Below the pieces are notes generated by a model. That model had not been told where the DNA came from, did not search any database, and was given only the letters and a program-made list of their open reading frames with translations. 36,734 nucleotides of DNA, taken from the NCBI GenBank assembly GCA_944386675.1, contig CALXBY010000015.1:1-36734 (forward strand). Direction: 5' to 3'. Origin of the DNA: an uncultured Clostridia bacterium. GTDB lineage: Bacteria > Bacillota > Clostridia > TANB77 > CAG-508. Positions 31,156-32,078 of the stretch are shown here, piece by piece. The translations under genes and the position numbers were made by a program. Every line of letters starts with the position of its first letter. Position 1 is the stretch's first letter.

Positions 31156-31539
31156 TTAAATCTTAACTCTGTACTCTTTATACTTACTACATAAATTCAA
31201 TGTACTTTTATTAGAAATTTTATCTTTGGGAATTAAATACATTTCTAATCTCTCATTTAATACAAATAGAAAATCAATTTTAGTATTAATTAAAGTTTTA
31301 TATGTTTTCCCATTAGTACCACCACAACTTTTTAAAGCCACTTGATATGTGCCATTACTAGTTTTACAACCTGTTGATTTTACTTGCACCGTTTTTAAGT
31401 TTCCATCTTTTTCTATCACTAAGTCATAATCCTGCGTATCATTTAATGGAATTGAAACTACAAATCCATTTGTAGTAAAATATGCTATTGCCATACCTAA
31501 ACCAGAATTTCCTTTTTCTCTATTTGTTTTAAAATCCAT
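31156..31539 (-). CDS. PD-(D/E)XK endonuclease, group I intron-associated (I-Ssp6803I-like)
   Basis: Predicted homing endonuclease. The 127 residues match the small PD-(D/E)XK family whose type member, I-Ssp6803I, lives in a cyanobacterial tRNA-fMet intron. Visible features are the N-terminal helix NREKGNSGLGMAIAYFTTNGFVVSIPLND, then the core YDLVIEKDGNLKTVQVKST with catalytic Asp39, Gln52 and Lys54 (the QxK variant of the motif), and a C-terminal DFLFVLNERLEMYLIPKD strand-turn-strand. I start at 31539, where AAGGA is 8 nt upstream; the ATG 6 nt earlier is too close. It lies 73 nt downstream of the 3' end of tRNA-Tyr, past that tRNA's terminator, on the same strand. The tRNA carries a group I intron. 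No promoter of its own is evident. Confidence 0.85.
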   Translation of the reverse strand: MDFKTNREKGNSGLGMAIAYFTTNGFVVSIPLNDTQDYDLVIEKDGNLKTVQVKSTGCKTSNGTYQVALKSCGGTNGKTYKTLINTKIDFLFVLNERLEMYLIPKDKISNKSTLNLCSKYKEYRVKI

Positions 31540-31586
31540 TGGCATTTCCTTTCTTGAAACATTTGTTTGTTTTGTTGCTTAAAAAT

Positions 31587-31611: not shown

Positions 31612-31926
31612 TGGTGGGCAGGGATGGATTCGAACCATCGTACTCAAATGAGAACAGATTTCTTACTACTATAGTTTTCACTACCATAATTAATATTATT
31701 ATGTTTGTAGTCTGGACTTTCTCTTTATCTTTTTCAAGATACCAGGTATAAAGTCTCTACACTCGGAAATTGCTTTCCTAGCTCGGGATTGTCATCAGCC
31801 TAACTGTTAAGAGTTCCCCGAATTAGCCCGGTGTTCATCATATAATCACTTATATGAGCTGCAAGTTTAGGTTTTGATTAACCAAAGACCACAGTCTGCC
31901 GCCTTTAGCCACTCGGCCACCTACCC
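31612..31926 (-). tRNA. tRNA-Tyr(GUA), interrupted by a group I intron
   Basis: Exon 1 is 31891-31926 and exon 2 is 31612-31661; the 229-nt intron is removed between them. The joined 86-nt RNA folds as a class II tRNA: acceptor GGGTAGG/CCTGCCC with a U4-G69 wobble, D-arm GCC/GGC, anticodon stem GCAGA/TCTGT with loop CTGTAAA (anticodon GTA), long variable arm CTCA/TGAG, T-arm GATGG-TTCGAAT-CCATC, and encoded CCA. The intron follows U35, between the second and third anticodon bases. A plus-strand open frame starting MVGRDGFEPSY is the well-known shadow translation of a tRNA 3' half. It is co-transcribed with tRNA-Met from the promoter at 32050-32078. All tyrosine codons would depend on splicing unless another copy exists. 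Confidence 0.93.
31662..31890 (-). ncRNA. Group I self-splicing intron (229 nt, tRNA anticodon-loop type)
   Basis: All core elements can be paired on the minus strand. P1: exon CTGT with GCAG (31859-31862), placing a U-G pair at the 5' splice site. P2: CATATAA/TTATATG with a GTGA loop (31839-31856). P3: CCGGG (31827-31831) with CCTGG (31742-31746). P4: CGGGG (31816-31820) with TCCCG (31784-31788). P5: AACT/AGTT. P6: GGAAA/TTTCC with a GCAA loop (31765-31778). P7: GACTTT (31750-31755) with AAAGTC (31715-31720). P8: TATCTT/AAGATA with a GAAA loop (31726-31741). P9: CTAC plus CATAAT paired with ATTATG plus GTAG. The Q-, R- and S-type boxes (AATCCCGAGC, GTGTAGAGACTT, GAGAAAGTCC) are clear. The last intron base is G. 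No open reading frame lies inside. It resembles the compact IC3-type tRNA introns. Confidence 0.92.
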
Positions 31927-31941
31927 GTATATTTACTTTAA

Positions 31942-32018
31942 TGGTGCTCCCTCAAGGATTCGAACCTTGGACCCACCGGTTATGAGCCGGTTGCTCTGAC
32001 CAACTGAGCTAAGGGAGC
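31942..32018 (-). tRNA. tRNA-Met(CAU) (or tRNA-Ile2)
   Basis: A 77-nt cloverleaf with encoded CCA: acceptor GCTCCCT/AGGGAGC, D-arm GCTC/GAGC, anticodon stem ACCGG/CCGGT with loop CTCATAA, and T-arm CAAGG/CCTTG. The CAU anticodon fits elongator Met. An Ile2 tRNA (lysidine-modified) shares this loop, and the two cannot be separated with certainty by eye. It lies 15 nt upstream of the intron-bearing tRNA-Tyr, in one transcript. Confidence 0.93.
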
Positions 32019-32049: not shown

Positions 32050-32078
32050 AGTATAAACTATTTTTATTTCGTTGTCAA
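32050..32078 (-). promoter_or_regulatory. Promoter of the tRNA-Met/tRNA-Tyr unit
   Basis: On the minus strand: perfect TTGACA (32073-32078), 17-nt spacer, TATACT (32050-32055), about 32 nt before the first base of tRNA-Met. Confidence 0.8.

Follow-up and report, generated by a model that had tools for sequence, protein, structure and literature searches.

A probable self-splicing group I intron in a clostridial tRNA-Tyr gene and its likely spread by collaborative homing

Introduction

Group I introns of bacteria are known from the genes for tRNA-Leu(UAA), tRNA-fMet, tRNA-Arg(CCU) and tRNA-Ile(CAU) (Azoarcus type, IC3). In Synechocystis the gene for the homing endonuclease I-Ssp6803I lies inside the tRNA-fMet intron, and we take the protein of PDB entry 2OST to be the enzyme of that intron. 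The available text of PMC4033280 lists cyanobacteria, alphaproteobacteria and betaproteobacteria for such introns, and that of PMC8450103 names the fMet and Ile2 introns and describes tRNAscan-SE 2.0 as a program not designed for group I introns. Introns of cyanobacterial tRNA-Arg, tRNA-Gly and tRNA-Lys are claimed in the available part of PMC5733544, one of them at nucleotides 39-60, which we judge too short for group I. Collaborative homing is described for two phages in what is available of PMC3984707, according to which the phage introns known by 2014 all lay in protein genes; one of the titles it cites concerns an endonuclease whose specific target is the anticodon region of tRNA-fMet.

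The window analysed here is a stretch of 36,734 nucleotides from an uncultured Clostridia bacterium (contig CALXBY010000015.1). An initial annotation of the window had described a group I intron in its tRNA-Tyr gene, and was silent on the adjacent endonuclease gene and on sister introns in tRNA-Thr and tRNA-Asn. We propose that the tRNA-Tyr intron is probably self-splicing and is likely to have spread by collaborative (trans) homing on the bacterial chromosome.

Results

The anticodon of tRNA-Tyr(GUA) is interrupted after U35

The tRNA-Tyr(GUA) gene occupies 31926-31612 on the minus strand, and a group I intron of 229 nt, with no space for an ORF of any length, is inserted after U35 (Table 1). 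Run without introns, ARAGORN called the neighbouring tRNA-Met as the sole gene at the locus and passed over tRNA-Tyr; with introns allowed, it returned tRNA-Tyr(gta) with a 229-nt intron at the same place. Among the exon joins compared, 31926-31891 with 31661-31612 scored highest (118.9, anticodon gta), and the resulting 86-mer reads as tRNA-Tyr. The Rfam model Intron_gpI (RF00028) matched 31894-31690 on the minus strand with 39.3 bits (E 1.2e-8, 481 nt searched). Of the Infernal check suggested in the initial annotation, the significant match thus stood, but its score falls short of the gathering score of 50, which is a curator's threshold and no structural feature. At that threshold no match was reported at the locus, and a search of the whole genome with RF00028 missed the tRNA-Tyr intron. 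Applied to 20 related loci, the same model listed matches at E 1e-4 or better in four, with 37.6-43.6 bits, and left 16 unlisted.

Table 1. Features of the interrupted tRNA-Tyr locus and its surroundings in the window, in order of transcription
Feature	Positions	Strand	Evidence and remarks
Promoter-like site before tRNA-Met, TTGACA-17-TATACT	32050-32078	-	11/12 consensus bases; consensus match only
tRNA-Met(CAU)	31942-32018	-	Upstream of tRNA-Tyr; same neighbour in intron-bearing and intron-free relatives
tRNA-Tyr(GUA) 5' exon	31891-31926	-	Ends in GACUGU (U35); empty-site alignment, query 1-36; ARAGORN on joined exons 118.9
Group I intron, 229 nt, terminal G	31662-31890	-	RF00028 39.3 bits; covariation; intron-free alleles
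Internal guide sequence GCAG	31859-31862	-	Base-paired to CUGU at the exon end (31894-31891) as P1, with U.G at the splice site; drawn pairs
P2 hairpin, GUGA loop	31839-31856	-	Both-side changes at 6/7 pairs in A1
P3 5' strand, partner 31746-31741	31827-31832	-	Both-side changes at 3/6 pairs in A1, 4/6 in A2
P4-P5 domain (P4 31822-31817 with 31787-31782)	31782-31822	-	Covariation counts in A1; RNAalifold
R/S core: P7 (31755-31750 with 31720-31715), P3 3' strand, P8 with GAAA loop	31715-31755	-	Covariation counts; served as R/S search pattern
P9 (31711-31707 with 31669-31665) around two hairpins, one with GAAA loop	31665-31711	-	Covariation counts; RNAalifold
tRNA-Tyr 3' exon	31612-31661	-	A36 onward, long variable arm, encoded CCA; empty-site alignment, query 266-315
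Free-standing PD-(D/E)XK endonuclease gene, 129 aa, I-Ssp6803I-like	31156-31545	-	66 nt after tRNA-Tyr, same strand; Pfam, PDB, Foldseek

The junctions follow from intron-free relatives. With the gene as query, 44 of 55 genomes (own genome included) gave a match; 13, again counting the own genome, hold the full interrupted gene, and in many of the others the exons abut directly, query bases 1-36 against 266-315, so that the junction is exact to the base. The insert is unambiguously 229 nt long, because its first base (G) differs from the first base of exon 2 (A) and its last base (G) from base 36 of exon 1 (T). The same alleles fix the terminal G at the 3' splice site; our host tallies by exon joining required a terminal G and are no test of it. 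Eight of the 13 intron-free or partial tRNA-Tyr loci fetched (L018-L030) carry an intact tRNA-Tyr that adjoins tRNA-Met, as in the window. The group I type, insertion point, length, terminal G and tRNA-Tyr(GUA) host given in the initial annotation are all supported, and its attribution to a Firmicute agrees with the close relatives, which include uncultured Clostridia. We found no description of a group I intron in a bacterial tRNA-Tyr in the literature searched, which covers few subscription journals; to that extent the suspicion that this host was undescribed holds.

Covariation supports a group I ribozyme fold

Helices P1, P2, P3, P4, P5, P6a, P7, P8 and P9 were drawn on the window sequence and their pairs counted on two alignments, A1, comprising 26 of 27 representatives of 45 tRNA-Tyr introns (L013 excluded), and A2, comprising 31 introns from Tyr, Thr, Asn and Lys hosts; A2 and a third alignment, A3 (32 introns), were taken from 66 representatives. 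In A1, 98.1% of cells are paired, against 92.3% in shuffles and at most 46.1% in slid controls, and both sides have changed at 25 pairs and in 94 cells, against 10.9 and 22.9 in shuffles. In A2, 86.6% of cells are paired (shuffles 74.6%) and 254 cells show both-side changes (shuffles 93.0); further pair types are not clearly beyond shuffles (81 against 78.3), and P2, P8, the P1 extension and the inner P5 pairs of the window drawing fit these mixed hosts poorly (52-77%). Unaided, RNAalifold recovered P1, P2, P3, P4, P5, P6, P8 and P9; P3 and P7 cross, so that the program cannot draw both, and it gave the 5' strand of P7 to a small hairpin. The fold z-score of the gene is -3.89, a value reached by none of 100 shuffles.

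Two helices stand apart in this test. The drawn pairs of P1 are invariant in 26/26 A1 introns, including U14.G50 (A1 columns), and the guide therefore escapes the covariation test in A1. For P7, 100% of the cells in A1 and 98.4% of those in A2 are paired; this helix hardly varies, and is thus neutral as covariation evidence. The drawing contains the P3-P9 core with the P3/P7 pseudoknot that defines a group I intron. The drawing of P1 to P9 is supported overall by the pair counts and, P7 apart, by RNAalifold, and the loop count needs amending, the drawn model having four GNRA loops (GUGA, GCAA, GAAA, GAAA) where three had been claimed. From its R/S motifs, the intron is presumably IC3-like.

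Related introns occupy up to three tRNA genes per genome

RF00028 having missed the tRNA-Tyr intron in the whole-genome search, we built a covariance model for this intron family, R1. In the order, 102 of 288 genomes contain a match to R1; in the class the count is 11 of 196 (four of them strong) and in the phylum 10 of 299, where the own genome is strong, two genomes reach 83-91 bits and the rest at most 45.4 bits. Introns lie in tRNA-Tyr, tRNA-Thr(UGU) or tRNA-Asn(GUU), singly or together, in 95/288 genomes of the order, and with one Lys genome the number with introns in one to three tRNA genes is 96/288. By genome (n=102), the hosts are Tyr only in 30, Thr only in 22, Thr and Tyr in 13, Asn only in 11, Asn and Tyr in 8, all three in 6, Asn and Thr in 5, Lys in 1 and unassigned in 6. 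The order and class searches yielded 132 fetched loci (50 Tyr, 46 Thr, 28 Asn, 8 unassigned). For the weak R1 matches in class and phylum (L318-L324, L357-L364) no tRNA placement was obtained, and in all except L357 no core was found. Two more distant matches in the phylum (L355, L356) fit tRNA hosts with anticodons CAU and UCU. At four loci (L105, L051, L055, L095) the interrupted tRNA-Asn lies shortly after 5S rRNA, as at the ends of rRNA operons.

The R/S core pattern occurs in at least 119 stretches of named genome contigs and in 98 of viral contigs. Among the matches listed, the hosts of 122 genome sites are Tyr (39), Thr(UGU) (32), Asn (15) and other tRNAs (16), with 15 sites showing no tRNA and five weak. 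Many of the viral contigs (L186-L283) have group I introns in tRNA genes, mostly tRNA-Leu(UAA), at 58 of 105 sites, and also Asn, Lys and Gln.

The tRNA-Tyr introns probably do not share one origin. Five of them, together with two that contain an endonuclease, group with Thr introns in the tree (support 97/95; viral rows and L136 excluded), and they are 75-90% like the nearest Thr intron and at most 74% like the main Tyr clade. Tree and identity thus disfavour a single origin, which the AU test does not reject (one Tyr-intron clade, p 0.284). A tree that included phage introns held at most 12 phage Leu introns and no offset-0 junctions. In L127, another interrupted tRNA, whose 3' exon fits tRNA-Thr, lies directly upstream of the interrupted tRNA-Tyr.

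The guide varies with the exon of its host: taking the best placement in a range, which is somewhat favourable and picked some false places, exon and guide read CUGU/GCAG in Tyr and Asn, UGU/GCA (three pairs) in Thr, CUCU/GGAG in Lys-CUU, CUUU/GAAG in Lys-UUU, CUU/GAG in Leu and CCU/GGG in Arg. The junction follows position 35 in Tyr and Asn and position 36 in Thr, and UGU precedes it each time, so that the sequence, rather than the position in the tRNA, seems to set the place of insertion. In tRNA-Thr(UGU), tRNA-Asn(GUU) and tRNA-Lys(CUU), which related introns would have reached, the anticodon loop provides an exon end fitting the guide.

These observations bear on whether the introns instead reverse-spliced into tRNAs and reached the DNA through reverse transcription and recombination, with endonuclease homing playing a minor part. 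The UGU shared by three hosts despite the different positions speaks for such a route, as does the guide, which alone accounts for the choice of target, and no endonuclease lies near the Thr or Asn introns (0/38 and 0/23 loci). Reverse splicing leaves the endonuclease next to tRNA-Tyr unexplained, and we regard it as the less probable main route, though one that deserves weight. For jumps between tRNA species, reverse splicing and homing may both be right; for tRNA-Tyr itself, we favour collaborative homing, on the evidence of its neighbouring gene.

An I-Ssp6803I-like endonuclease gene accompanies the tRNA-Tyr intron

Sequence and structural model identify the product of the gene at 31156-31545 as a PD-(D/E)XK endonuclease and a relative of I-Ssp6803I, a homing enzyme. 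It belongs to Pfam PF11645 (PDDEXK_5; 65.3 bits against a cut-off of 26.1, E 7.6e-18), and among solved structures the closest to it in sequence is 2OST (E 9.3e-5; next match 0.63). With a model of moderate confidence (pLDDT 68.9), Foldseek placed chains of 2OST, titled homing endonuclease I-Ssp6803I, at ranks 1-4 (probability 1.00, TM 0.46-0.55 by query length). Residues D39, Y40, D41, Q54 and K56 are invariant in 20/20 endonuclease sequences, and are presumably catalytic, as in the family at large. In 11/11 chosen pairs dN/dS is 0.11-0.32, which at the level of the coding sequences shows selection on the endonuclease. In the phage record collection there was a single weak match, over 23% of the query.

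The endonuclease is present in 40 of 288 genomes of the order, 33 of the 57 with a Tyr intron and 7 of the 231 without (Fisher 3e-21, a value that ignores kinship among genomes); in the other 24 Tyr-intron genomes none was detected. With the tRNA end taken as the intron end plus 50, 25 of the 33 have a same-strand copy that starts less than 500 nt downstream (in 22 of them at 65-78 nt), and the rest lie at 0.9-1.1 kb (2), at 8.6-9.4 kb (3) or on other contigs (3, among them a weak match in G009). Some copies in the 33 are short or broken, with 34 to 78 aligned residues in six and an internal stop in G284. Among loci with at least 700 nt of flank, duplicates removed, an endonuclease within 700 nt downstream was found for 21/50 Tyr and 1/7 Met introns and for none of the Leu introns (0/37); the Asn and Thr values given above are from this count, which supersedes an earlier one (Tyr 22/60, Asn 0/24, Thr 0/44, Leu 0/57) with duplicates and too narrow a limit on ORF starts. 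A free-standing endonuclease is thus linked to an ORF-less intron, the pattern that marks collaborative homing. Two Bacilli contigs (L093, L127) have a relative of the endonuclease within the tRNA-Tyr intron itself, where its ORF follows exon 1 and precedes the guide. Two further Bacilli tRNA-Tyr introns (L171, L175) are ORF-less and retain a CTGGAG stretch resembling the one that precedes the ORF of L093 and L127, which would fit a deletion of the endonuclease gene.

Intron-free tRNA-Tyr genes are followed by the endonuclease at 1/28 loci, and there in broken pieces. Of the seven genomes that have the endonuclease but no Tyr intron, two (G417, G378) show broken pieces of it after an intron-free tRNA-Tyr; G469 has a nearly full copy 17 nt behind such a gene, with three otherwise invariant residues changed and a short C-terminus; G003 (pieces) and G213 (a partial copy) have no tRNA in the locus; G446 holds a fragment; and G333 has a divergent copy beside tRNA-Asp. 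The last, a PDDEXK_5 gene at 831-1220 of L530 just before tRNA-Asp(GUC), is perhaps a related enzyme with another tRNA target. Genes of PDDEXK_5 also stand beside or inside group I introns of other tRNAs: in L119, a Bacteroidetes contig (host Met(CAU) by exon joins, Leu(CAA) by ARAGORN with introns), in L236, a viral contig (host Lys or Leu), and in L077, a Patescibacteria contig where ARAGORN draws a tRNA-Met with a 640-nt intron spanning the ORF.

Could the intron be real and the nuclease have nothing to do with its mobility, as a chance neighbour or the cargo of integrative elements attached to the tRNA? Elements do use this tRNA-Tyr: in G252 (L528), tRNA-Tyr and its distant endonuclease are separated by an element that carries Phage_integrase and Mob_Pre, and 3' remnants of the tRNA also occur; the nearly full copy of G469 moreover follows an intron-free gene. 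The spacing of 65-78 nt in 22 of the 33 genomes leaves no room for an element, however, and the copies are far likelier to occur with the intron, belong to the family of I-Ssp6803I and have a relative inside the tRNA-Tyr intron of two Bacilli contigs. We therefore hold an unrelated nuclease to be improbable and keep to an endonuclease serving the intron. In four loci (L528, L529, L060, L063) the interrupted tRNA-Tyr appears to have received integrative elements at its 3' end, the last three with 3' tRNA-Tyr remnants of 31-37 nt.

Decoding of tyrosine codons very probably depends on splicing

The contigs of the own genome (75% complete, 53 contigs) contain no second tRNA-Tyr, in line, for the assembled part, with the suggestion that the interrupted gene is the only one. 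A loop pattern for intact tRNA-Tyr matched perfectly in two intron-free control genomes; the other 14 genomes gave no perfect match and only one-mismatch matches, which in intron-bearing genomes are somewhat commoner than in the reversed control, and none of the 26 one-mismatch places (24 + 2) in these 14 is a tRNA-Tyr. In a sample of 98 genomes of the genus, 21 have a known interrupted tRNA-Tyr, all except the own genome at least 90% complete, and 0/21 also have an intact one; 53 others match intact tRNA-Tyr over its full or nearly full length, and the rest give no good match, a fragment or remain unclassified. Decoding of Tyr codons therefore very probably depends on splicing by the predicted ribozyme.

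That the interrupted gene is dead and another tRNA-Tyr sits in the missing part of the genome is conceivable for an assembly of this completeness, but we give it almost no credence in view of the 0/21 against 53 and because different families of the order conserve both the ribozyme core and the ends of the exons. An assembly artefact or chimera is less credible still: the records of the close named relatives come from uncultured organisms or MAGs, but the same insert recurs at the same base in 13/55 genomes, own included, and tRNA-Tyr introns occur in 50/132 fetched loci, with covariation. Pseudogene, artefact and missing-copy readings were rejected on recurrence at the same base, covariation and the 0/21 second copies.

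Discussion

The results allow us to propose a series of linked steps for the intron and its endonuclease. A small IC3-like group I ribozyme would splice itself out of the tRNA-Tyr precursor, a guanosine bound in P7 attacking first and exon 1 then attacking after the terminal G. Splicing would rejoin G34-U35 with A36, so that tyrosine codons could be read only if the ribozyme works. The PD-(D/E)XK protein would, most probably, cleave tRNA-Tyr alleles that lack the intron in their anticodon region, and repair templated by the interrupted locus would copy in both the intron and the endonuclease gene, as in collaborative homing. The association of the gene with tRNA-Tyr introns of two lineages, and its broken copies behind empty sites, bear indirectly on this predicted target. 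Once the intron is fixed the endonuclease may decay, and loss of the intron would restore the empty site. Related introns appear to have reached tRNA-Thr(UGU), tRNA-Asn(GUU) and tRNA-Lys(CUU). The states seen here are an intron that has its endonuclease, one whose endonuclease is broken, one that stands alone, an empty site that keeps an endonuclease remnant and a plain empty site, and they are those that a homing cycle predicts (PMC1654191).

We further favour, with somewhat less assurance than homing itself, the view that two different group I intron lineages, sharing one anticodon site, were served by a single tRNA-Tyr-specific I-Ssp6803I-like endonuclease, whose gene is free-standing beside the tRNA in Clostridia and part of the intron in Bacilli, with all stages of gain, decay and loss visible in living relatives at an essential single-copy tRNA. 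The origin of homing enzymes in mobile introns has so far been argued mainly from phages (PMC3984707); an endonuclease inside the intron in one group and outside it in another may offer living stages of how mobile introns acquire a homing enzyme. The arrangement of such an intron with an adjacent endonuclease has likewise been described mainly in phages.

In these uncultured gut Clostridia an essential tRNA, with no spare copy found, relies on a predicted ribozyme that splits its anticodon. Introns of this kind, in 96/288 sampled genomes of the order, fall below the standard Rfam threshold where tested and are invisible to default ARAGORN. The system is directly testable with short RNAs and a protein of 129 residues.

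The locus can be set against four known systems. With the described bacterial tRNA introns it shares the small, here predicted, self-splicing type, the anticodon-loop site, the U.G splice site, the terminal G and the core motifs; the hosts differ, being Tyr, Thr(UGU), Asn(GUU) and Lys(CUU), with the anticodon split after U35 in Tyr and Asn, and the introns here lie in Clostridia and Bacilli, score below the Rfam threshold and occupy up to three tRNA genes per genome. Synechocystis tRNA-fMet with I-Ssp6803I, the nearest solved relative, likewise ties a PD-(D/E)XK homing endonuclease to a group I intron of a tRNA anticodon loop, whereas the endonuclease of the window is free-standing downstream; L093 and L127 have it inside the tRNA-Tyr intron. 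The group I introns of Bacillota in flagellin, recA and nrdE and the IStrons belong to the same phylum and are set apart by their protein-coding or transposon context. Phage collaborative homing, in the available account of PMC3984707, also combines an ORF-less intron with a free-standing endonuclease at the insertion site; in contrast, the present pair resides on a bacterial chromosome, in a tRNA gene, with a PD-(D/E)XK enzyme of predicted target specificity.
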